DNA of 64,000 nucleotides from Paracoccus sp. UBA889 (lineage in GTDB: Bacteria > Pseudomonadota > Alphaproteobacteria > Rhodobacterales > Rhodobacteraceae). Numbering within the stretch: the stretch's first letter is position 1; the number at the start of each line of letters is the position of its first letter. A program made the translations under genes and the position numbers. Positions 53,767-64,000 of this stretch are shown here, in pieces. Below the pieces are notes generated by a model. That model was not told the origin of the DNA and searched no databases. It worked only from the letters and a program-made list of their open reading frames with translations. The stretch lies in NCBI GenBank assembly GCA_002294185.1, contig DBFD01000046.1:78860-142859 (forward strand). The letters are read 5' to 3'.

Positions 53767-55650
53767 ATGCCCGACGGTTCCGGGGAGGCGACAAAGGGGG
53801 CTTCGGCCCCATCCGGCGACATCGTGGCGCTTCGCATCCTGGCAACCACGGACGTGCACATGAATGTGCTGCCCTATGATTACCTTGCCGATCGGCCCAG
53901 CGGACGGGGCGGTCTGGCGCGCACGGCGTCGCTGATCGCGCGGCGGCGGGCCGAGGTGGACAATTGCCTGCTGCTGGACAACGGCGATTTCCTCGAAGGC
54001 ACGCCTCTGGGCGATTTCGCGGCGCGCAGGACCGCCGGTATGGACCGTCCCCATCCCGCCATCGCCGCGATGAACGCGCTGGCCTATGACGCCGCCGCGC
54101 TTGGCAACCACGATTTCAGCTTCGGGCTGGCATTCCTGCGCGGTGCCACCGATCGGGCGCGGTTTCCCGTTCTGGCGGCCAATCTTCATGTCCGGCGCGG
54201 GCGCGGCTTTGCCCCCTATGCGATCGTCGATCGCAGCCTGCGCGACGTGGCCGGGCGGCAGGTGCCGATGCGCATCGGGCTGGTCGGTTTCCTGCCTCCC
54301 CAGACCGCCGAATGGGACCGCGACCTGTCTTCGGACCTGATCTGCGACGACATCGTGGCAACCGCGGGCAGGATCGTGCCGCAGATGCGCCGCGCGGGGG
54401 CGCAGATCGTCATCGCCCTGGCCCATACCGGAATCGGCGATCCGGCCGCGCGACCGGGGATGGAGAACGCCGCCACCGCCCTGGCCGCGACGCCGGGGAT
54501 CGACGCGGTGATTGCGGGCCACACCCATCAGGTCTTTCCGGGTCGCGATTTCCGCGCCATTCCGGGCATCGACCCGCAGCGCGGCACGCTGGCCGGCAAG
54601 CCTGCGGTGATGGCGGGATTCGGCGGATCGCATCTGGGCGTCATCGACCTGCGGCTGCGCCGCGACGGCGCCGGCGGCTGGCAGGTCGCCGCGTTCGACT
54701 GCCGGGCCGAAACCGTGCCCGCCGATTTGCCCGCCGCGCCCGAGATCGCCCGCCCCGTCATGGCCGATCATCGCGACACGCTGCGCCAGCTGCGCCGGCG
54801 TGTCGGCCGGTCGGACGCGGCCCTGACCAGCTACTTCGCGCTGATCGGCGTCGATCCGGGGCTGCGGCTGGTCAACATGGCGCAACGCTGGCACGTCCGG
54901 GCCGGGCTGCGTGGCACCTGCTGGCAGGATCTGCCGGTGCTGTCGGCATCGGCCCCGTTCCGGGCCGGCGGAAGGGGCGGTCCGGGCCATTACACCGACG
55001 TCCCCGGCGGGCGGCTCAGCCTGCGCAGCCTGTCGGATCTCTATTCCTTCCCGAACCGCATCTGCGCGATCCGCCTGGATGGCGCGCAGTTGCGCGACTG
55101 GCTGGAACGTGCGGCCGGGATGTTCAGACGGATCACGCCGGGCGGTCACGATCAGCCGCTGCTGGCCGAGGATTTTCCCTGCTACAATTTCGACGTCGTG
55201 GATGGGGTGACGTGGCAGGTCGATCTGTCGCAGCCCGCACGCTTCGGCCCCGATGGCCGGCTTGCCGACGCGGCCGCCTGCCGGATTCGCGATCTGTGCT
55301 GGCAGGGACGGCCGTTGCAGGACCGCGATGTCTTCGTGCTGGCGACCAATTCCTATCGCCTCGCCTCTTGCGGATTGTTCAGCCCGCTGGTCGCGGGCAA
55401 CGAGGTGGCGCTGAAGGACGGGGCGCTGACCCGCGATGTGCTGCGCCACTACATTCGCCGGCGCCGCCGGATCCGGGTCCGCCACCGCGCGCATTGGCGC
55501 TTCGCCCCCATGCCCGGCACCAGCGTGCTGTTCGAGACCGGCCCCGGCAGCCTGGACCATCTGGCCGAACTGGAACGCCATCTGCCCGGCCGCCTCGACC
55601 ATACCGGCGCCTCCGGCGATGGCTTCGTGCGGTTCAGACTTTTCCTCTGA
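53767..55650 (+). CDS. 2',3'-cyclic-nucleotide 2'-phosphodiesterase/3'-nucleotidase (CpdB-like)
   Basis: The 627 aa of the UshA/CpdB metallophosphatase family. Metal motifs are LATTDVHMN, LLDNGDFLEGTPLGD, ALGNHDFSFG, IVIALAHTGIG and IAGHTHQVFPG. The C-terminal substrate domain has SLSDLYSFPNRICAIRLDG and CYNFDVVDGVTWQVD, as in CpdB. Unlike known CpdB proteins, no signal peptide is visible: the N-terminus is PDGSGEATKGASAPSGD and the first catalytic strand starts near residue 24. The protein may act in the cytoplasm or be exported by another route. The SRP RNA gene follows. Confidence 0.85.
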   Translation: MPDGSGEATKGASAPSGDIVALRILATTDVHMNVLPYDYLADRPSGRGGLARTASLIARRRAEVDNCLLLDNGDFLEGTPLGDFAARRTAGMDRPHPAIAAMNALAYDAAALGNHDFSFGLAFLRGATDRARFPVLAANLHVRRGRGFAPYAIVDRSLRDVAGRQVPMRIGLVGFLPPQTAEWDRDLSSDLICDDIVATAGRIVPQMRRAGAQIVIALAHTGIGDPAARPGMENAATALAATPGIDAVIAGHTHQVFPGRDFRAIPGIDPQRGTLAGKPAVMAGFGGSHLGVIDLRLRRDGAGGWQVAAFDCRAETVPADLPAAPEIARPVMADHRDTLRQLRRRVGRSDAALTSYFALIGVDPGLRLVNMAQRWHVRAGLRGTCWQDLPVLSASAPFRAGGRGGPGHYTDVPGGRLSLRSLSDLYSFPNRICAIRLDGAQLRDWLERAAGMFRRITPGGHDQPLLAEDFPCYNFDVVDGVTWQVDLSQPARFGPDGRLADAAACRIRDLCWQGRPLQDRDVFVLATNSYRLASCGLFSPLVAGNEVALKDGALTRDVLRHYIRRRRRIRVRHRAHWRFAPMPGTSVLFETGPGSLDHLAELERHLPGRLDHTGASGDGFVRFRLFL

Positions 55651-55655
55651 CGGGG

Positions 55656-55684
55656 TTGCATCGGCTCTGCCCGCCGATTATCTG
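55656..55684 (+). promoter_or_regulatory. Candidate promoter of the SRP RNA gene
   Basis: TTGCAT (55656-55661), 17-base spacer, TATCTG (55679-55684). Transcription would begin around 55690, exactly where the terminal helix of the RNA starts, which supports the call. Confidence 0.6.
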
Positions 55685-55689
55685 TCGCG

Positions 55690-55787
55690 CCGAGAGGTTG
55701 GCGCGGGCAGGCATCTCGCCAATCCGGTCAGGTCCGGAAGGAAGCAGCCGTAACGAGCCCCGCCTGGGTCGTTGTCCAGCCTCTCAC
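55690..55787 (+). ncRNA. ffs: Bacterial small signal recognition particle RNA (4.5S)
   Basis: The hallmark apical loop GGTCAGGTCCGGAAGGAAGC is at 55726-55745 (symmetric and asymmetric loops that bind Ffh). The ends pair as GAGAGGTTGG (55692-55701) with CCAGCCTCTC (55776-55785), including one G-U pair. The total of about 95 nt is the usual short alphaproteobacterial form. It targets ribosome-nascent chain complexes to the membrane with Ffh/FtsY. Confidence 0.95.
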
Positions 55788-55918
55788 CCTCAAACCACGG
55801 ATCGGAACCGGCCGCGATGCCATCGCGCAACCGCGATCATGGCCGCAAGGCGCATTGACGATCCGTTCCGTATCCATTCCGTCTTGCGTCGTGGCGGTGT
55901 CGCGCCCATCATTGCGGC

Positions 55919-56401
55919 ATGGAGACGCGCCCCTTCGCCCTGGCCACCCTGTTGCTGCTGCTGCCCCTGCCCGCCCCGGCGCAGGCGCCCTACCAGCCGC
56001 CGCCGGCCGATGCGCCGCGTCGGTCGCAGGATGCCGAGGATCCGACCGATCTGATCGGGCGCGGATTGGGAATGTTGTTTCAGGATCTGTGGAACGATGT
56101 CGGCCCCGATCTGAACCGGCTGGGCGAGGACATGTCGGGCGCGCTGTCGCGGATGGCGCCGGTGCTGAAGGATCTGGCCGTGCTGGTCGATGATCTCGGC
56201 AATTACGAGACGCCCCGGCGGCTGGAGAACGGCGATATCGTGATCCGCCGCAAACCGGGCGCCCCGCCGCCGCCGCCCATCGGCGAGAATCTTCGCGATT
56301 TCCCGGATCCGGATGCGCCGGGCGCCGATCAATCCCCCGATCAGTCTCCGGACGGGCCTTCGGTGCCGCGCGACCCGGACGCCCCCGAGATCGAATTGTG
56401 A
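55919..56401 (+). CDS. Secreted small protein of unknown function
   Basis: The 160 aa have an N-terminal signal peptide (ALATLLLLLPLPAPAQA) and a central helical segment DLIGRGLGMLFQDLWNDVGPDLNRLGEDM (read in parts). A VLVDDLGNYETPRRLENGDIVIRRKP strand follows, then a Pro/Asp-rich tail. Similar small secreted proteins occur in Rhodobacteraceae without known function. Its 3' end overlaps the converging exonuclease-fusion gene by 61 bp. Confidence 0.7.
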   Translation: METRPFALATLLLLLPLPAPAQAPYQPPPADAPRRSQDAEDPTDLIGRGLGMLFQDLWNDVGPDLNRLGEDMSGALSRMAPVLKDLAVLVDDLGNYETPRRLENGDIVIRRKPGAPPPPPIGENLRDFPDPDAPGADQSPDQSPDGPSVPRDPDAPEIEL

Positions 56402-58329
56402 TCGGGATTGGCATTGCCGATCAGGCGGCGATGCCGGCGGGCCTCGGCCAGCGTATCCTCGAAGCGCGCGATGCCCTTGGCTTCCAGCGCGGGAATCAGC
56501 CGCAGAAATGCCTGCGCGGTGGCGATCGCATCGCCCATGGCGCTGTGGCGCTGATCGGGCGGAATCGCGATCCCCAGCCTTTCGGCCAGCGCGTCCAGCG
56601 TGTGCGCGACCGTGCCACCCCAGACCATCGCTGACAGCAAAACGGTGTCCAGCACCCGGTTGTCGAACTGCGCCCCCGATTCGGGTGTGGCGGCGCGCAG
56701 CAGGCCCATGTCGAAGGGCGCGTTGTGGCAGACCAGCACGGCATCCTCGGCGAAATGGTGAAACGCCATCAGCGCGGTCCTCATGTCGGGCGCGCCGGCG
56801 ACCATCTGGTCGGTGATGCCATGAATGGCGCTGGCGCGCGCGGGGATTCGGCGTCCCGGATCGACCAGCGTCTCGAACCGCTCGCCGGTCAGGCGGCCGC
56901 CCGCGATACGGATCCCCGCGATCTGCACGATCCGGTCCCGGGCCGGATCCAGTCCGGTCGTCTCGGTATCGAAGACCACGCAGGTCAGATCCGCCAGCCG
57001 CGACGAGGCCGCCGCGCGCGAGGGCAGCGCGAAATCATAGGTCAGCCCGGCACCGCCAATGCGGTCCGGGGCCCGTCGCAGGGGCAGGACCAGCCGGGCA
57101 CGCGAATCGTCGGCTTCGGGCCAGATGCCGGTGCCATGCGCGGCCAGGATGTCGGCCCCGCTGCGGTCGGGCTGCGCCGGATCCGGCGCCTGTCGCAGCC
57201 AGTCCTCCAGCCGGTCCATCGGCAGTGGCGGGCCGTCCCATTCCAGCAGCAGATGCGCCTCGCCCGGATCATCCGCCGCGACACGCAGCGCGGGCGCCTG
57301 GCCCATCGCCCGCAGCCGATCCTGCAAAAGACGCAGCAGCGCGCCGATCGCATCCGCCTCGGCCAGCAGCGACAGCGGCGGCAGATCGGTCGCGCGATCC
57401 AGTCCCGCGGCCAGTTCGTTCAGCCCGGCGCGGGCGGTGGGCGGCGCGTCGGTCATGACCTCGGACAGGCGGCGGGTGGCGCGGGCCAGGCCCTGCCCCT
57501 CGGCCCGGATCGCGGCCGCCAGCGCAGGCGGGATCGGTCCGTCCAGCGCGTTCAGCATCGGCACCAGTGTCGCGGCGTGTCGGCGCAGCGCCTCCAGCGC
57601 GTCGCGGGGCGCGGGCCGGGGCGGGGCCGTCTCATGCAAAATCAGCAGCGTGCCTTCATCCAGCCGCCGCATCCGGCCGGACAATCGTGTCCCTTGCGCG
57701 GTCAGGCAGACCAGGTCGGTCGCCTCGGCGCCCGCCTGCAACCGCGCGGCGGCGGCCTCCAGCGCGCCGGGCGCGATATGGCGATGCAGCGGGCGGTCCA
57801 GCGCAAGCCCCGGCAGCAGCCGCGCGGCCGAAGCATTGTAGAACACCACCCGCCCGTGCGGATCGGTCATCAGCGCGCCGGCGCCGAAATCGGCGAGGAT
57901 GGATTCCAGCGCCGCCTTTTCCCGCGTCAGATGGGCGGCGTGATCGTGAAGGGCGGCGGTCAGTGCCTGATCCGTCCGCGCCCGCGCCGCCGCCGCGTCG
58001 CGCACGGCCGGGCCCAGATCGGCCAGATAGCGCGCCTCGTCCGGCTCGGGCGCCTGCCCGGTGCGCAGCCCGCCCGCCAGAACCTCGATCGGGCGGGCGA
58101 TGTGGCGGTCGAACAGATACCAGATGGCGGTGACCAGCGCCACGGCGGCAAGGCCCGCGACCATCCCGGCCTGGATCAGAAGGTCCAGCCCGAATTCGAT
58201 CAGCGCGTCAAGCTCGGCAAGGCTGCGGCCGGCCACCGCAAGGCCCAGACCGATCGCCGCCACGATCCCCGCCGCCAGGCCGGCGAAGATCAGGAAGATC
58301 CGCAGGCGCAGGGACAGGCGGGTCAGCAC
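56341..58329 (-). CDS. Membrane sensor / decayed kinase core / DEDDh 3'-5' exonuclease fusion
   Basis: The 662 aa in domain order: two membrane helices (about 9-33 and 49-73) with a short loop; a HAMP-like segment (HIARPIEVLAGGL); and a PAS-like domain (about 140-235, ILADFGAGALMTDPHGRVVFYNASAARLL in parts). Next is a helical region like a HisKA dimer with no obvious phospho-His, and an ATPase-like remnant (EWDGPPLP and GADILAAHGTGIWPEADDSRARLVLPL, about 360-418) without an N-box Asn. The DnaQ-type exonuclease (about 448-625) keeps all five residues: Asp454, Glu456, Asp540, His595 and Asp600. It overlaps the receiver gene by 7 bp. Exonuclease activity looks intact; kinase activity does not. 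Confidence 0.85.
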   Translation of the reverse strand: MLTRLSLRLRIFLIFAGLAAGIVAAIGLGLAVAGRSLAELDALIEFGLDLLIQAGMVAGLAAVALVTAIWYLFDRHIARPIEVLAGGLRTGQAPEPDEARYLADLGPAVRDAAAARARTDQALTAALHDHAAHLTREKAALESILADFGAGALMTDPHGRVVFYNASAARLLPGLALDRPLHRHIAPGALEAAAARLQAGAEATDLVCLTAQGTRLSGRMRRLDEGTLLILHETAPPRPAPRDALEALRRHAATLVPMLNALDGPIPPALAAAIRAEGQGLARATRRLSEVMTDAPPTARAGLNELAAGLDRATDLPPLSLLAEADAIGALLRLLQDRLRAMGQAPALRVAADDPGEAHLLLEWDGPPLPMDRLEDWLRQAPDPAQPDRSGADILAAHGTGIWPEADDSRARLVLPLRRAPDRIGGAGLTYDFALPSRAAASSRLADLTCVVFDTETTGLDPARDRIVQIAGIRIAGGRLTGERFETLVDPGRRIPARASAIHGITDQMVAGAPDMRTALMAFHHFAEDAVLVCHNAPFDMGLLRAATPESGAQFDNRVLDTVLLSAMVWGGTVAHTLDALAERLGIAIPPDQRHSAMGDAIATAQAFLRLIPALEAKGIARFEDTLAEARRHRRLIGNANPDHNSISGASGSRGTEGPSGD

Positions 58330-58694
58330 GGTTCCGCCAGAATGCGGGTCATCTCGGCGCGCAATTCGTCCAGTTCGAAAGGTTTGGCGATAAATCCGTC
58401 GGCGCCAAGCGCCATCCCCTTGCGCCGCTCGACGACAGAGCCGCGGGCCGTCATCATCAGCACGCGGATCCCCGACAGGGCCGGGTCGGCACGCAGATCC
58501 TGCACGATCTGGTAGCCTGAGACATCGGGCAACATCACGTCCAGCAGGACCAGATCGGGACGGGTCTCGCGGATGCGCTGCACCGCACCCTGCCCCGAGG
58601 CCATGCGGACGTGGCTGTGCCCCTCGCGCGTCAGCAGGAAATCCAGCGCGGTGGCGATGTTGTCCTCATCCTCGATCACCAGGATCCGGGCCAT
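58323..58694 (-). CDS. Stand-alone response regulator receiver
   Basis: The 123 aa are a CheY-like receiver only. Acidic pair Glu8/Asp9 in VIEDEDN, phospho-acceptor Asp52 in LVLLDVMLPD, Thr in MMTARG and Lys in AKPFELDEL. There is no output domain, so it must act on a partner protein. Start ATG 58694 follows GGAGGAGGGAAGG. It overlaps both the upstream membrane-protein gene (29 bp) and the exonuclease fusion (7 bp). Confidence 0.92.
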   Translation of the reverse strand: MARILVIEDEDNIATALDFLLTREGHSHVRMASGQGAVQRIRETRPDLVLLDVMLPDVSGYQIVQDLRADPALSGIRVLMMTARGSVVERRKGMALGADGFIAKPFELDELRAEMTRILAEPC

Positions 58695-59193
58695 CCTTCC
58701 CTCCTCCTTGCTGACAGACGACGGCCCAGACCGGATCGTCGGGCGCCGCGCTGACCCAATCGCCGCGCGCGGGTTTGATCCGCCCGGCCGCGCAGTCGAA
58801 ATCCTGGGGCACGACAAGGGTCTGGCCGCGTCGCTCGACCAGCAGGATTTCGGCGCGCCGGATCCCGTCCCGGTCGGTGATCGTCGCCGGATCGAGCGCC
58901 GCGAAACGCAGCGTCAGCGGCGCGAGATAGGTCCAGGGCGCCCAGGCCACGCTGCCGGTGCCCACCATCAGCACCCGCGCGCCATCGGGCAGACGCGCCA
59001 CCGCGCGGTCATACCAAGCGTAGTCGTTCCAGACCGAATAGCCAATCATCGCCAGCCCGATCCCCGCCGGCAGCAGCCAGCGCGGCAGTGCCAGCCCCGC
59101 CTTGCGCAGCGCGTGCAGCATGGCAAACAGGAACGCGGCGGTGCCGACGCCGACCGCGATCACGCCCAGAACCTCGACGCCCACGCCCGTCAT
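58666..59193 (-). CDS. Small membrane protein in the acetate/symporter signalling operon
   Basis: The 175 aa, family not recognised. Two hydrophobic helices (about 6-27 and 38-54) are followed by a soluble part of about 120 residues with ARVLMVGTGSVAWAPWTYLAPLTLRF, VERRGQTLVVPQDFDC and PVWAVVCQ. The start overlaps the upstream CBS/DUF294 gene (ATGA) and the end overlaps the receiver gene, so it is part of one translated unit. Confidence 0.75.
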   Translation of the reverse strand: MTGVGVEVLGVIAVGVGTAAFLFAMLHALRKAGLALPRWLLPAGIGLAMIGYSVWNDYAWYDRAVARLPDGARVLMVGTGSVAWAPWTYLAPLTLRFAALDPATITDRDGIRRAEILLVERRGQTLVVPQDFDCAAGRIKPARGDWVSAAPDDPVWAVVCQQGGGKDGPDPGDRG

Positions 59194-61001
59194 GCCAGCA
59201 TTCCCTTTCCCTGCCCCAGGGCAGATTGCATTCCCCTGACCACGACAAAGGCGTCACGCAGATGGCTGCGCTGAAAATCCGCCAGATCGCCGGGCGACAG
59301 GTAATTGTCGGGCCTTCGGCCCGCGCGGATCAGATCGGCCTGGTTGTCCAGCCGCATGGTCTGGATCAGGTCATAGGCCGCGATCAGATCGCGCGCGCCG
59401 CTGCCCGACAGGACGCCCTTGGCCTCGGCATCCTGAAGGCGTGCCCGCGTGCTGACCGGCGTCAGCCGGCCCTGCAACGCATGGATGCGGGCCATGTCGG
59501 TGACCGGCACGACGCCGTTGTGCTTCATGTCGATATGGTGGCGATGCTCGCCCGTGCGGATCGTGGCGAAACCGCCGATCAGGCCCAGCGGCGGGCGGTG
59601 CTTCAGCGCATTCGCGGTCATGTGCGCCACGAAGATCGAATTCTTCGAGGCCGCCTGCAACGTATCCTGTTGCAGATCGGCCAGCAGGCCCGCCTCGCCG
59701 CCGATGGCGCGCAGGTCGAACATGACGCTGGCCAGCATCTGCGCCTCGGGGCTGGGACGGGCGATCCAGTCGCGGAAATAGGCCCGCCACACGGTGCGGG
59801 GCTGACGCCAGCGCGGATTGGTAGCCATCATGTTGCCGGGGCAATAGACATAGCCGCAGGCATTCAGCCCGTCGCTGACCAAGCGTGCGAGTTCGCCGAA
59901 ATAGGGATCGTCCGGATCGGCGGCATCGTCCAGGATCAGGCAATTGTCCTGATCGCTGACGCCGGTCTGTTCCTGGCGCCCCTGAGATCCGCAGGCCGCC
60001 CACAGGAATGGCGCCGGCGGCGCCCCGAGCTGCGCCCGGGCCATGTCCAGAAGCCGCCGCGTCACGGCATCGGCCACATCGGTGATCATGCGGGTGATGA
60101 CTTCGTGACGCTGATGCGCGCGGCTGAGGTTCAGCAGCAGATCGGGGATGCGCGCGGTCATGCGGGCCATCTCGGCCACGCTGCCGGCCTGCGCCACGTC
60201 GCGGATCAGGCCGGAGGCGCTGATCGCCTGCACGCGGGTCAGGTCGGTCTGGCTGATCATGCCGACGAAGCGGCCGTCCTCGACGACCGGCAGATGGCCG
60301 ATGCGGCGTTCCAGCATGATGTTGAGCACATCATAGCCAAGCGCCGAGGGCGGCAGGGTGATCGGATCGGGGGTCATCACGCCCCGCACCGGACCGCCGG
60401 CGTCGCGCCCTTCGGCCACGACGCGGTTCGACATGTCGCGGATGGTGAGAAGGCCCACCAGCCTTTCGTCTTCGGTGATGCCGATGCTGCCGACGCCGGC
60501 CTCGCGCATCCGGCGGGCGGCCTCGATGATCGGGGTGTCGGGACCGCAGGCGACGGGCGCGCGGCGACCCAGCAGATCGCCAACCTTCAGCGTCGCGATC
60601 CGGGCGCCGCGCCCCTCGGGGCCACGGCCCCGTTCGAAGAACCGCGCCACCGCGCGATGGTCGCGGATCAGCGCCCTCAGATCGGCGGCGGGCAGCATCA
60701 GGATCTCGCAATCCTCGATGGCCGTGGCCGAGGTCACGGCCACGCCGTCGCGCAGCAGACCGCGTTCGCCAAACGAATTGCGCGGCCCAAGTTCCGACAC
60801 CGAATCGCCGTTGCGGTCGGTGACGCGGACGCGGCCGGTCCGGATCAGATAGAGGCCGGGCAGCCTGTCGCCGACCTGATAGATCCCGGTTCCGGCCGGA
60901 TAATGCCGGTGCGTGAAGGTTCCGGCGACGCGCGCCAGATCCTCTGATTTCAATCTGTCATAGGGGTGCACGGTGGCGATGAAATCGACGCTGTCGGACA
61001 T
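59190..61001 (-). CDS. cNMP-binding / CBS pair / DUF294 nucleotidyltransferase protein
   Basis: The 603 aa in order: cyclic-nucleotide-binding-like domain (about 8-125, with GDRLPGLYLIRTGRVRV and FGERGLL); a CBS pair (about 140-265: IIEAARRMREAGVGSIGI and DVLNIMLERRIGHLPVVEDGR in parts); and a DUF294 putative nucleotidyltransferase. That last domain has GSQGRQEQTGVSDQDN (338-353), where Asp350 and Asp352 are the likely metal ligands as in GlnD. A C-terminal DUF294-associated helical domain follows. It probably senses nucleotides and nucleotidylates a partner. It sits downstream of the symporter and upstream of the receiver/exonuclease genes. Confidence 0.92.
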   Translation of the reverse strand: MSDSVDFIATVHPYDRLKSEDLARVAGTFTHRHYPAGTGIYQVGDRLPGLYLIRTGRVRVTDRNGDSVSELGPRNSFGERGLLRDGVAVTSATAIEDCEILMLPAADLRALIRDHRAVARFFERGRGPEGRGARIATLKVGDLLGRRAPVACGPDTPIIEAARRMREAGVGSIGITEDERLVGLLTIRDMSNRVVAEGRDAGGPVRGVMTPDPITLPPSALGYDVLNIMLERRIGHLPVVEDGRFVGMISQTDLTRVQAISASGLIRDVAQAGSVAEMARMTARIPDLLLNLSRAHQRHEVITRMITDVADAVTRRLLDMARAQLGAPPAPFLWAACGSQGRQEQTGVSDQDNCLILDDAADPDDPYFGELARLVSDGLNACGYVYCPGNMMATNPRWRQPRTVWRAYFRDWIARPSPEAQMLASVMFDLRAIGGEAGLLADLQQDTLQAASKNSIFVAHMTANALKHRPPLGLIGGFATIRTGEHRHHIDMKHNGVVPVTDMARIHALQGRLTPVSTRARLQDAEAKGVLSGSGARDLIAAYDLIQTMRLDNQADLIRAGRRPDNYLSPGDLADFQRSHLRDAFVVVRGMQSALGQGKGMLA

Positions 61002-61025
61002 CCCTGGCCTTCCCGTGACATGGCT

Positions 61026-61058
61026 GGCCGCGCCCCCCCCTGATGAGGGGGCGCGGCC
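61026..61058. terminator. Strong hairpin between symporter and DUF294 genes
   Basis: GGCCGCGCCCCC (61026-61037) pairs with GGGGGCGCGGCC (61047-61058), a 12-bp stem with a 9-base loop, no U-tract. It lies directly after the symporter stop and may partly terminate or protect the upstream mRNA. Confidence 0.5.
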
Positions 61059-61067
61059 GGATTCGGT

Positions 61068-62876
61068 TCAATGCGCGACGGCGTCGCCCGCGCCGCGCGG
61101 CACGCGGATCGATTCGACCAGTTCCTGCACCTCGATCGGCGGTTCCTCGGTCGCGTTCGACACCAGATAGGCGACGCCGAAATTGATCAGCGCCCCGATC
61201 GTGCCGAAGGAGGCGGGCGAGATGCCGAACAGCCAGTTCGCGGCCGTATCCTCCAGCATGTTGGTGCCCGAGATGAAGAACCAGCCCTTGTAGGTGAAGA
61301 TGTAGAGCAGCGTGGACAGGATCCCTGCCAGCATCCCCCAGATCGCGCCCTGCTTGTTCACGCGCTTGGAGAAGATGCCCATCATCAGCACCGGGAAGAT
61401 CGAGCTTGCCGCCAGACCGAAAGCCAGGGCCACGGTCTGCGCCGCGAAGCCCGGCGGGTTCAGACCCAGCAGCGTCGCCACCAGGATCGAGACCCCCATC
61501 GAGATGCGGGCCGCGAGAAGCTCGCCCTTCTCGCTGATGGCCGGGTTGATCGCACCCTTGATCAGGTCGTGGCTGACCGCGCCCGAAATTGCCAGCAACA
61601 GCCCCGCCGCCGTGGACAGGGCCGCGGCCAGACCGCCGGCGGCGACAATGGCGATGACCCAGCCCGGCAGGTTCGCGATCTCGGGATTGGCCAGAACCAT
61701 GATGTCGTTGTTCACCGTGGTCAGTTCATTGCCCTGAAGGTTCTGCGAGGCAGCCATCTCGGCCGCCGGGCCGGTCGTGGCGGTGTCGTTGTAATACTGG
61801 ATCAGCCCGTCGCCGTTCTTGTCTTCCCAGTTCAGCAGGCCGGTGACCTGCCAGTTGCGCATCCAGGCCTTGTCGGGATCATTCTGGATCTGGTCCAGCG
61901 ACACGGCCGGCTGACTGAATGTCTCGCCGGTCGCGGCGCCCGGCCACATCGTCGTGGTCAGGTTGAACCGCGACATCGAGCCGACGGCCGGCGCGACGGT
62001 ATAGAGAAGCGCGATGAAGACCAGCGCCCAGCCCGCCGACAACCGTGCATCCGAAACCTTGGGCACGGTGAAGAAACGGATGATCACATGCGGCAGTCCC
62101 GCCGTGCCGATCATCAGCGCCAGCGTGAACAGCACCATGTCCAGCGTGGACTTGTGATGCCCGGTATAGGAATTGAAGCCCAGATCCGTGACCACCTTGT
62201 CCAGCGTCGCCAGGAACTTGCCGCTGCCATTGTTCAGAGAGCCGAACAGACCGGTCTGCGGCAGCACATTGCCGGTCAGTTGCAACGCGATGAAGACCGC
62301 CGGGATCGTGTAGGCGATGATCAGCACGATATACTGCGCGACCTGCGTATAGGTGATGCCCTTCATGCCGCCAAGAACGGCATAGACGAACACGATCGCG
62401 GCGCCGATCCACAACCCGGTCGAATTCGACACCTCCAGATAGCGCGAGAAGGTGACGCCCACCCCGGTCATCTGGCCGATCACATAGGTGATCGAGATGA
62501 TCAGCAGGCAGATCACGCCGATGATCCGCGCGGTGCCCGAATAGAAGCGGTCGCCGATGAATTCCGGTACGGTGAACTTGCCGAACTTGCGCAGATACGG
62601 CGCCAGCAGCATCGCCAGCAGCACATAGCCACCGGTCCAGCCCATCAGATAGGTCGAGTTGTCGTATCCGGTAAAGGCGATCAGCCCCGCCATCGAGATG
62701 AAGCTGGCCGCCGACATCCAGTCGGCCGCCGTGGCCATGCCGTTCATGACCGGGTGGACGCCGCGATTGGCGGCGTAGAATTCGGCCGTCGATCCGGCCC
62801 GCGCATAGATCGCGATGCCGATATACACCGCGAAGCTGAGGCCGATGAAGATCAGGTTGAGGGTAAACTGGCTCAT
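61068..62876 (-). CDS. ActP-like sodium:solute (acetate/monocarboxylate) symporter
   Basis: The 602 aa of an SLC5-family symporter, VC_2705-like. About 13 hydrophobic helices; GMATAADWMSAASFISMAG, YLRKFGKFTVPEFIGDRF and HVIIRFFTVP are family signatures. An extra loop of about 70 residues (about 310-390) contains DKNGDGLIQYYN, a near-perfect EF-hand calcium loop. The C-terminus ends EEPPIEVQELVESIRVP. It is encoded directly after the DUF4212 partner, as usual for this pair. Acetate is the likely substrate given the neighbouring acetyl-CoA synthetase. Confidence 0.9.
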   Translation of the reverse strand: MSQFTLNLIFIGLSFAVYIGIAIYARAGSTAEFYAANRGVHPVMNGMATAADWMSAASFISMAGLIAFTGYDNSTYLMGWTGGYVLLAMLLAPYLRKFGKFTVPEFIGDRFYSGTARIIGVICLLIISITYVIGQMTGVGVTFSRYLEVSNSTGLWIGAAIVFVYAVLGGMKGITYTQVAQYIVLIIAYTIPAVFIALQLTGNVLPQTGLFGSLNNGSGKFLATLDKVVTDLGFNSYTGHHKSTLDMVLFTLALMIGTAGLPHVIIRFFTVPKVSDARLSAGWALVFIALLYTVAPAVGSMSRFNLTTTMWPGAATGETFSQPAVSLDQIQNDPDKAWMRNWQVTGLLNWEDKNGDGLIQYYNDTATTGPAAEMAASQNLQGNELTTVNNDIMVLANPEIANLPGWVIAIVAAGGLAAALSTAAGLLLAISGAVSHDLIKGAINPAISEKGELLAARISMGVSILVATLLGLNPPGFAAQTVALAFGLAASSIFPVLMMGIFSKRVNKQGAIWGMLAGILSTLLYIFTYKGWFFISGTNMLEDTAANWLFGISPASFGTIGALINFGVAYLVSNATEEPPIEVQELVESIRVPRGAGDAVAH

Positions 62877-62889
62877 GTTGGATCCCCGC

Positions 62890-63147
62890 TCACTCGTCCA
62901 CGCCGTGGTCGCGGTCGAGCTTGTTCATCCGCGCCGCGTAAAAGAAGATCAGCACGATGAACACCAGGATCGCGCCTTGCTGCGCGAACCAGAAGCCCAG
63001 ATCCGTGCCGCCGATCCTGATGCCCGAAAGCAGCGGTCGCAGGATGATCGCGAAGCCGTAGGATACCAGTGCCCAGATGGCGAGGCAGATCCAGATGATC
63101 CGCAGATTCGCCTGCCAGTAGGCGTTCGATGATGTTCTGTCACTCAT
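62890..63147 (-). CDS. DUF4212 small membrane subunit
   Basis: The 85 aa with YWQANLRIIWICLAIWALVSYGF, a second helix (GAILVFIVLIFFYAARMN) and a basic/acidic end. DUF4212 proteins are encoded next to ActP-like symporters and are thought to be their accessory subunits. Start ATG 63147 has GGGAGG upstream. Gap to the symporter is 13 bp. Confidence 0.88.
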   Translation of the reverse strand: MSDRTSSNAYWQANLRIIWICLAIWALVSYGFAIILRPLLSGIRIGGTDLGFWFAQQGAILVFIVLIFFYAARMNKLDRDHGVDE

Positions 63148-63280
63148 GTCCTTGCGGTCCTCCCTGTTCAGACATGTCCCTCGTCCCGCCTTGCCGTCCT
63201 GCATCCCGGTCGCGCCCCGTCAGGGCTGCGCGTGACGCGATTCGGGGCCGGCGGGCGGCCCCGTATTCTCCCGGCGCCGC

Positions 63281-64000
63281 TCAGCCGCGGTTCATCCGGT
63301 TCTCGATCAGGTCTTCCACCACCTCGGGTTCGGCCAGGGTCGAGGTGTCGCCCAGGCTGCCATAGTCATTCTCGGCGATCTTGCGCAGGATGCGGCGCAT
63401 GATCTTGCCCGATCGCGTCTTGGGCATCCCGGGCGCCCACTGGATCAGGTCCGGCTTGGCGATCGGGCCGATCTCGCTGCGGACCCACTTTTCCAGCTCG
63501 GCGCGCAATTCCTCGGTCGGCTCGACCCCGCTCATCAGGGTGACATAGGCATAGATCCCCTGTCCCTTGACCGGGTGCGGATAGCCCACGACCGCTGCCT
63601 CGGCGACTTTCTCATGTGCGACCAATGCCGATTCGACCTCGGCCGTGCCCATGCGATGGCCGCTGACATTGATCACGTCATCGACCCGGCCGGTGATCCA
63701 GTAATAGCCGTCCTCGTCCCGGCGGCAGCCGTCGCCGGTAAAGTAATAGCCCGGATATTGCTGGAAATAGGTTTCCTCGAAACGCTTGTGATCGCCCCAG
63801 ACGGTCCGCATCTGGCCCGGCCAGCTATCGGCGATGCACAGCACGCCCTCGGCCGGATTGCCCTCTTGCACCCTGGCCGATTCGGCATCGAGAATGGCCG
63901 GCCTGATGCCGAAGAACGGAACCGTGGCCGAGCCGGGCTTGGTCTCGGTCGCGCCCGGCAGCGGCGTGATCAGGTGGCCGCCGGTTTCGGTCTGCCACCA
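63281..64000 (-). CDS. acsA: Acetyl-CoA synthetase, C-terminal part
   Basis: The gene is cut by the right edge; 239 codons of the C-terminal part are present. The first residues are [19 protein letters not shown], the A5 motif of AMP-forming acyl-CoA synthetases. [26 protein letters not shown] (in parts) is the hinge/A8 motif, and the acetylation-site lysine motif [11 protein letters not shown] is near the end. It activates acetate to acetyl-CoA and lies 133 bp upstream of DUF4212-actP, giving an uptake-and-activation locus. Confidence 0.95.

Follow-up and report, generated by a model that had tools for sequence, protein, structure and literature searches.

In Pseudomonas putida, the genes pp_0354 and pp_0353 encode a CBS-domain protein and an RNase_T exonuclease and follow one another in one operon (PMC9927547), an order that recurs in the operon described here. 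According to the accessible passages of that study, the exonuclease mutant pp_0353 grew poorly on pyruvate, as did an actP-I mutant, the pp_0354 mutant had no phenotype, neither the pp_0353 nor the pp_0354 mutant was affected on acetate, added DNA had no effect on growth, and Henriquez et al. speculate on mRNA decay (PMC9927547). From the same passages, which speak of a CBS domain, we infer that pp_0354 is a DUF294 protein. In P. aeruginosa PA3232-PA3235, homologues of the pair adjoin actP and yjcH and belong to the MxtR/ErdR, that is the CrbS/CrbR, regulon (excerpts of PMC8402216, PMC5715377 and PMC9765439), and excerpts of PMC9927547, PMC8402216, PMC5715377 and PMC9765439 taken together give Pflu5625 cAMP-binding, CBS and nucleotidyltransferase domains. 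The pairing of a DUF294 protein with an exonuclease near symporters is old and already partly described, and the proteobacterial neighbourhood that a preliminary description of this locus had mentioned is real and partly in print (excerpts of PMC9927547, PMC5715377 and PMC8402216). Literature searches yielded no published description of the alphaproteobacterial pseudokinase-exonuclease form, no work joining DUF294 with exonuclease and symporter or with acetate (including Paracoccus), and none combining an exonuclease with histidine kinase, pseudokinase, PAS and response regulator; the accessible part of PMC5436829 holds nothing on an exonuclease, and PMC7918813 contains none of the terms sought.

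The window, which is the whole 64-kb stretch of DNA that was analysed and comes from Paracoccus or a very close relative of that genus, carries six genes running in the same direction as one operon, at the positions given in the preliminary description. All features below are located on the minus strand. Downstream of acs the gene order is DUF4212, VC_2705-type symporter, DUF294 protein, small membrane protein, receiver and exonuclease fusion. The acs gene (acetyl-CoA synthetase; ORF and P. denitrificans homologue), absent from the preliminary description, lies directly upstream of the operon with its stop at 63281, and its 3′ part (63281..64000) is truncated by the window end. The whole operon is present in P. 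denitrificans PD1222 (PDEN_RS22665-RS22695), where the adjoining homologue is annotated as acs, acetate--CoA ligase. The DUF4212 small symporter subunit has 85 aa (62890..63147; PF13937, E 2.3e-34; TIGR03647, E 4e-33) and the VC_2705-family sodium/solute symporter 602 aa (61068..62876; TIGR03648, 811.7 bits at a cut-off of 320.75); TIGR03648 and TIGR03647 both over cut-off in adjacent genes identify a VC_2705-type symporter with small subunit. The overlap of 4-29 bp reported for the last four genes is right, since the coordinates give 4 bp between DUF294 and small protein genes, 29 bp between small protein and receiver genes and 7 bp between receiver and fusion genes. The sole match of an Rfam scan of 55600-64000 was SRP RNA, and the numbers of promoter-like sites (1, shuffle mean 0.7) and terminator-like sites (4, shuffle mean 2.6) were compared with shuffled sequence.

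The full gene set from DUF4212 to the fusion was found in 15 of the 16 full-length Paracoccus loci (L033-L045, L053-L055), the exception being L035 with a different symporter and no DUF4212 or small-protein match. In a survey of the order, 112 of 196 genomes matched and 60 of the 112, usually one or two per genus, were analysed; the set, with the receiver counted or not, is present in 59 of the 60 loci. Because nearly every locus in both samples keeps the set, the grouping is beyond chance, and the conserved link of the exonuclease to the DUF294 nucleotidyltransferase and the symporter that had been proposed is supported. Among the 59 order loci, which were defined by DUF4212, symporter, DUF294 and small protein, the receiver is the only gene 3′ of the symporter that varies in presence. 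Further afield, the DUF294 gene adjoins the exonuclease gene in 18 of 20 loci picked from a phylum-wide match list.

The DUF294 protein of 603 aa (59190..61001) comprises a cNMP-binding-like domain, two CBS domains, a DUF294 nucleotidyltransferase domain and DUF294_C (PF00027, PF00571, PF03445 and PF10335, all over cut-off). Its assignment as a DUF294 nucleotidyltransferase is based on PF03445, PF10335 and the GS...DxD motif being present together; the motif GSxGRxE..SDxD is located at residue 338 and is kept in 80/82, 17/19 and 17/20 proteins of three sets. Pockets for cAMP have a characteristic phosphate-binding Arg pattern. Of 82 operon homologues, 1 carries this pattern, and cAMP is therefore unlikely as the ligand of the DUF294 protein and was rejected. 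The small membrane protein of 175 aa (58666..59193) was modelled by AF2 as two long helices followed by a beta-rich domain (mean pLDDT 75); Cys134 and Cys160 are invariant in four sequences, no Pfam or NCBIfam family scored over cut-off, and no PDB fold matched at E<0.001.

The last gene encodes a fusion of 662 aa (56341..58329; ORF, profile matches, AF2) with a predicted TM-PAS-pseudo-histidine-kinase-DEDDh exonuclease architecture. Its residues 445-640 (56410..56997) are predicted to be a DEDDh (RNase_T/DnaQ) 3′-5′ exonuclease, the RNase_T match at residues 451-608 having an E-value of 9.7e-35 and 121 bits at a cut-off of 24. The five residues named previously, Asp454, Glu456, Asp540, His595 and Asp600, are all present and are invariant in 105 of 105 rows, that is in 104 loci and the window; L114, whose fusion is broken by an insertion sequence, was left out here as well as from the tree test and the count of 81 operons given below. 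The nearest PDB structure is that of PolC (2p1j, E 1e-29), and the solved relatives at E<1e-10 are exclusively PolC/DnaQ proofreading domains (5 sequences). This kinship with replicative enzymes would suit an exonuclease for repair or salvage that just happens to adjoin a transporter, but the DUF294 pairing is conserved within and outside Alphaproteobacteria, and in P. putida there is a carbon-source phenotype and no growth effect of added DNA (accessible passages of PMC9927547), so that such a housekeeping role is highly improbable. The wide conservation of the pair, with its adjacency in the picked loci, its retained nucleotidyltransferase motif and its invariant exonuclease residues, would also fit a scheme in which nucleotides that the DUF294 protein attaches to a protein or an RNA 3′ end are taken off again by the exonuclease, with the receiver only gating their removal. 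Against this scheme, we know of no DEDDh enzyme that removes protein-bound nucleotides, and the mutant phenotypes of pp_0353 and pp_0354 differ in the accessible passages of PMC9927547; we regard it as improbable. The preliminary description stands as to architecture and linkage, while its idea that the nuclease breaks down a nucleotide or RNA signal that the DUF294 protein would make remains a conjecture.

A strong, conserved hairpin that the preliminary description does not mention is located 9 nt past the symporter stop codon (61026..61058); it has a 14-bp stem and no T-run, with a z-score of -2.39 for the folded 81 nt. In related loci the post-symporter hairpin has z<-2 in 73 of 82 cases (median -4.26), compared with 6/82 and 6/82 inside the symporter gene, where the medians are -0.09 and -0.58 (82 loci each); the sites past acs (70 loci) and past the fusion (82 loci) have medians of -0.48 and -0.46. 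These values would agree with a control of mRNA in which the exonuclease shortens operon transcripts or those of central carbon genes and the hairpin shields the acs-symporter part, and Henriquez et al. likewise speculate on mRNA decay in the accessible passages (PMC9927547). The same hairpin is, however, also found in loci whose fusion has no pseudokinase. Hairpins after stop codons are often stabilisers or weak terminators, which weakens the argument, and a membrane-borne DnaQ/PolC-type domain that works on mRNA would, as far as we know, be without precedent; overall, we consider control of mRNA by this route an improbable explanation.

The N-terminal part of the fusion (residues 1-90, 58060..58329) contains two predicted membrane helices (AF2 helices 7-38 and 44-90; sequence). 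Of the PAS-like domain described behind them, residues 131-235 (57625..57939) give a weak match by sequence (PF13426, best E 0.029, below cut-off), but the AF2 block-mean pLDDT over residues 181-230 is 67-80. Residues 236-435 are, as judged by alignment, a complete but dead histidine-kinase core consisting of a DHp-like helical hairpin (residues 236-312, 57394..57624), in which Glu246 takes the phospho-His position, and a degenerate CA-like ATPase domain (residues 313-435, 57025..57393; AF2 block means 58-90 over residues 331-420), in which Trp364 takes the position of the G1 Asp. The AF2 model of the fusion is poor overall (mean pLDDT 48). Homology extends over the whole kinase core (hhalign against real kinase cores 98.2%, E 3.9e-14, 208 columns; with 60 rows 99.5%, E 2.5e-22), compared with 0.2, 0.2, 0.5 and 11.3% for four control pairs. 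In 59 fusion rows, the window included, the phospho-His column holds 34 E, 12 D, 7 other residues, 6 gaps and no His, which amounts to Glu/Asp in 46 and His in 0 of 53 aligned fusions; the reference kinases have His in 14 of 14. No conserved N-box Asn was found in columns 330-339 of the fusion alignment, and Trp replaces the G1 Asp in 52 of 60 rows. The 60th row is L101, whose best match is its real kinase and which was for that reason kept out of the pseudokinase counts. Set A1 lacks L039, L054 and L055, and L095 is represented among the reference kinases by a fragment of 114 aa. The profile-profile alignment thus bears out the reported loss of the phospho-His and the N-box. That the whole kinase fold is kept under purifying selection (dN/dS 0.18-0.52 for the kinase-like region, seven pairs) might speak for an active, unusual histidine kinase, but with phospho-His, N-box Asn and G1 Asp all missing by hhalign and column counts this reading was rejected as hardly tenable. 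An intact kinase, a neighbourhood lacking conservation and loss of exonuclease residues, which had been named as grounds for refutation, were all looked for and none was found.

The single-domain receiver of 123 aa (58323..58694; PF00072, E 1.4e-25; alignment) has intact Glu8/Asp9, Asp52, Thr82 and Lys104, and Asp52 is present in 58 of 59 receiver rows, some of which come from outside this operon type. Its state was compared with that of the pseudokinase in 81 operons. Where the H-box motif is kept (31 operons), the receiver is intact in 30, degenerate in 1 and absent in 0; where the motif is altered, the receiver is intact in 4, degenerate in 2 and absent in 7; and where the pseudokinase is gone, it is absent in all 37, with none intact or degenerate. 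In L151 and L152 a decayed receiver coincides with a changed or lost H-box, whereas L043, L111, L145 and L148 have an altered motif yet an intact receiver. The direction of the co-variation mostly fits, but with so few independent events it does not reach significance: in the paired tree test with 5 starred pairs, about 3 were concordant and 0-1 opposite (median p 0.625, range 0.25-1). L113 and L175, whose DUF294 rows are identical, were both counted in the phylogenetic analysis. There are signs of a functional link between the receiver and the pseudokinase-exonuclease. Alternatively, the receiver might serve an unrelated kinase and another target, such as the symporter or the DUF294 protein, with the pseudokinase being only the remnant of an earlier sensor kinase and serving as a dimerising linker. 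The receivers of L047 and L101, which lack a pseudokinase and adjoin an SLC5 kinase, and the seven loci with a pseudokinase and no receiver point in that direction. Set against them are the 37 pseudokinase-free operons without any receiver, the joint decay in L151 and L152 and the fact that 3′ of the symporter the receiver alone comes and goes; we judge an unrelated target rather unlikely, though it deserves some weight.

No active kinase gene was found within the operon. Among relatives, L048 (228-aa kinase) and L153 encode an intact kinase in line with the receiver and the fusion, and in L049, L091, L092, L094, L095 and L097-L099 these two genes have an SLC5-type kinase as their neighbour. 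In the genome of the window, the best candidate would be the SLC5-type kinase at G000:C29, which has a second lone receiver immediately upstream. Because of this adjacent receiver, and because SLC5 kinases also occur in same-genus genomes that match only general exonucleases (G003, G004, G010), it need not serve the operon.

We lean slightly towards a relay from a kinase through the receiver and a dead-kinase dock to the exonuclease, with an output on nucleic acid that tunes monocarboxylate uptake. The operon would be an acetate/pyruvate-type monocarboxylate uptake operon carrying its own control cassette, in which the fusion would act as a membrane-tethered 3′-5′ exonuclease and its dead kinase core would dimerise and offer the lone receiver a docking site. 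A genuine histidine kinase, found beside the receiver in relatives and presumably elsewhere in this genome, would phosphorylate the receiver, which would then bind the pseudo-DHp and alter how active the exonuclease is or how far it reaches. The targets may be uptake and acs transcripts, or else ends or short oligonucleotides on which the DUF294 nucleotidyltransferase acts, and uptake would thereby be matched to the energy or acyl-CoA status that the CBS domains sense. The computed basis consists of the domains, the dead kinase core, the intact exonuclease and receiver residues, the conserved operon and the receiver-pseudokinase co-variation; the relay from kinase to pseudokinase and the role of the CBS domains are our inference from these, and the receiver probably switches the membrane nuclease. 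Counted for the relay were the close relation (48% identity) between the operon's receiver and the one beside the G000:C29 kinase and the poor pyruvate growth of the P. putida pp_0353 and actP-I mutants; counted against it were the other receiver partner of that kinase, the lack of a phenotype in pp_0354 and the unaffected acetate growth of both mutants (accessible passages of PMC9927547), as well as the few independent events, the seven pseudokinase loci without receiver, L047, L101 and the poor AF2 model. A more specific version, in which the phospho-receiver on the Glu-for-His dead kinase gates removal of nucleotides from DUF294-modified RNA ends or uptake-system proteins, the output then being a membrane-held exonuclease and neither DNA binding nor cyclic-nucleotide turnover, appears unlikely as a whole. 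If the relay is true, two-component signalling would extend to direct control of a nuclease, a dead histidine kinase would have a use as a receiver dock, and the DUF294-exonuclease pair could be put to the test in P. denitrificans, which is easy to handle in the laboratory.

Compared with the fusion, pp_0353 is described in the accessible passages as an RNase_T exonuclease only, and these mention neither a membrane/PAS/pseudokinase part nor a receiver gene (PMC9927547). The pseudokinase of the fusion aligns to the core of SLC5-type kinases, and in other alphaproteobacteria an intact-H-box kinase of this SLC5/STAC group (CrbS, CbrA, RpuS) adjoins the same receiver and pseudokinase-exonuclease. 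The known outputs of SLC5/STAC kinase systems are DNA-binding regulators, whereas the output here is seemingly an exonuclease. The ChpT phosphotransferase, a histidine-kinase-like protein that lacks kinase activity and in which a DHp and a degenerate CA domain dock receivers, was among the Foldseek matches (4fmt/4fpp, E about 0.006-0.009); ChpT keeps its His, while the fusions mostly have Glu/Asp in place of the phospho-His and carry a nuclease in addition. With the PolC/DnaQ proofreading exonucleases the fusion shares the catalytic domain, but it is predicted to be tethered to the membrane and is encoded in a transport operon with no polymerase.

The six genes run in one direction between 63147 and 56341, as the preliminary description had stated, and lie on the minus strand. 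They encode DUF4212 (62890-63147), a symporter of family TIGR03648 (61068-62876), a protein with the domains cNMP/CBS/CBS/DUF294/DUF294_C (59190-61001), a membrane protein of 175 aa (the small protein, 58666-59193), a receiver of 123 aa (58323-58694) and the 662-aa fusion (56341-58329). The last four genes overlap by 4, 29 and 7 bp in gene order, and acs ends upstream of the operon at 63281. Judged by its named relatives, the genome belongs to Paracoccus or lies next to it, and gene order is identical on plasmid 1 of P. denitrificans PD1222, annotated as acs, DUF4212, symporter, DUF294, hypothetical, response regulator and 3'-5' exonuclease. Just past the operon end lies a bacterial small SRP RNA gene (55692-55788, plus strand, 56.5 bits). 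An unnamed convergent gene of 160 aa (55919-56401, plus strand), with homologues at the equivalent place in several Paracoccus, shares 61 bp with the 3' end of the fusion gene. The metallophosphatase with 5'-nucleotidase C-terminal domain at 53767-55650 (plus strand) adjoins the operon, apart from the own genome, only in L034 among the compared same-genus loci.

Right after the symporter stop, a GC-rich hairpin with a 14-pair stem and no T-run (61026-61058, minus strand) is conserved in the order Rhodobacterales. The 90 nt past this stop had a median z of -4.26, with 73 of 82 loci below -2; control medians were -0.09 and -0.58 within the symporter gene, while downstream of acs (70 loci) the median was -0.48 and downstream of the fusion -0.46. 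The hairpin probably separates transporter from regulator expression; a link to the exonuclease is conjecture.

None of the 105 rows compared (104 loci plus the window) departs from the catalytic residues of the DEDDh exonuclease; the fusion carries the complete domain proposed earlier. In profile alignment, the region before it matched SLC5-type histidine kinase cores over 208 columns (98.2%, E 3.9e-14; 99.5% with 60 rows), with four control comparisons at 0.2-11.3%. Loss of the phospho-His, also proposed, was borne out: the acceptor column holds His in 14 of 14 reference kinases, Glu246 in the window and His in none of 59 fusion rows (E 34, D 12, A 2, T 2, S 2, V 1, gap 6). Trp replaces the G1 Asp in 52 of 60 rows. 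Selection preserves the kinase-like region: its dN/dS was 0.18-0.52 in seven pairs (exonuclease, 0.04-0.26). The AF2 model of the fusion was poor overall (pLDDT 48), with block means of 58-90 in the ATPase-like part; its best PDB match was 3a0r, a complex of histidine kinase and response regulator (E 3.5e-7, TM-score only 0.15).

Apart from the own genome, 13 genomes of the genus contain a full-length fusion; 38 of the 41 genomes searched gave some match, many of them DnaQ-type exonuclease domains alone (28-39% identity). The order survey gave a match at E 1e-55 in 112 of 196 genomes, and 60 loci were fetched from these. DUF4212, symporter, DUF294, small protein and fusion occurred together in 59 of the 60, with or without a receiver; the exception, L153, has another symporter (32% identity) and a kinase with intact H-box, and lacks DUF4212 and the small protein. 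The gene acs was seen in 53 of the 60, four of the seven misses lying at contig ends. Two Paracoccus loci, L114 (P. alcaliphilus; symporter annotated ActP, with DUF485) and L035 (no small-protein match), keep the control genes beside a different symporter, and the cassette is therefore not tied to one transporter. The fusion gene of L114 (7001-8633) is broken by an IS5-like element; receiver, DUF294 and symporter are still annotated.

Natural losses of receiver and pseudokinase were compared in 81 operons of the window type, L114 excluded. With the H-box remnant kept, the receiver was intact in 30, degenerate in 1 and absent in none; with the remnant altered, these numbers were 4, 2 and 7; all 37 operons without the pseudokinase were also without the receiver. 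Five of the seven receiver-less pseudokinases belong to one clade, in which the DHp hairpin is shortened. Two decayed receivers coincide with a changed or lost H-box. The L151 receiver has Asn for the phospho-Asp and that of L152 Ser-Ser for the acidic pair; both could, judged by these substitutions, be pseudo-receivers. In a tree test on 5 well-supported pairs, about 3 agreed with this pattern and 0 or 1 ran against it, which is not significant with so few events. Counter-examples are L043, L111, L145 and L148, with altered remnant and intact receiver, and, outside the operon type, L047 and L101, with receiver and kinase and without pseudokinase. We lean slightly towards a relay in which a kinase would phosphorylate the receiver, which would dock on the dead kinase and so act on the exonuclease.

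The window operon has no intact kinase gene. In other alphaproteobacteria an intact SLC5-type kinase adjoins receiver and pseudokinase-exonuclease (L049, L091, L092, L094, L095, L097-L099). In G020 (L048), a genome of the same genus, a soluble kinase of 228 aa, likewise intact, the receiver and the fusion stand directly one after another; kinase and pseudokinase are therefore separate proteins. The own genome holds, as best match, one SLC5 kinase with HisKA and HATPase_c intact, on contig 29, where ScfR-type regulator, lone receiver and kinase stand in this order (L125, 5903-10795). The kinase is only a candidate partner of the operon receiver, because it has its own receiver alongside (just upstream, 48% identity to the operon receiver) and similar kinases occur in the fusion-less same-genus genomes G003, G004 and G010. 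The ScfR-type (short-chain fatty acyl-CoA) regulator, also upstream of the kinase, contains a DHp-like stretch (E 6.8e-6) that retains a His; it resembles a second effector on which a lone receiver would find a DHp-like dock, and the trio is possibly a sister pathway with transcription factor output.

The related neighbours proposed for other proteobacteria were also found. Across the phylum, 123 of 299 genomes matched, and 20 DUF294 loci, 18 of these loci from other classes, were hand-picked from the list. A DEDDh exonuclease frame adjoins DUF294 on the same strand in 18 of the 20 (as an open frame below 300 aa in 15 of these), and a symporter is nearby in 14 of the 20. The nucleotidyltransferase motif was retained in 80/82, 17/19 and 17/20 proteins of three sets. 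The earlier observation is thus correct, and part of this neighbourhood had been described before; the specific variant, in which a membrane exonuclease with a dead kinase is paired with a receiver, did not turn up in the open-licence papers searched. The DUF294-exonuclease kind of pair is already known. The pp_0354 promoter is bound by ErdR (PMC8402216), propionate raises PA3232-PA3235 (PMC9765439), and Pflu5625, a CBS/nucleotidyltransferase protein of the P. fluorescens CrbR regulon, has a negligible mutant effect on acetate growth (PMC5715377). According to PMC9927547, loss of pp_0353 or actP-I, and not of pp_0354, slows growth on pyruvate; loss of pp_0353 or pp_0354 leaves acetate growth unaffected; and the mechanism is unclear to its authors, who speculate on mRNA decay. 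The same paper places the P. putida CBS-domain protein pp_0354 and the RNase_T protein pp_0353 in one operon under MxtR/ErdR.
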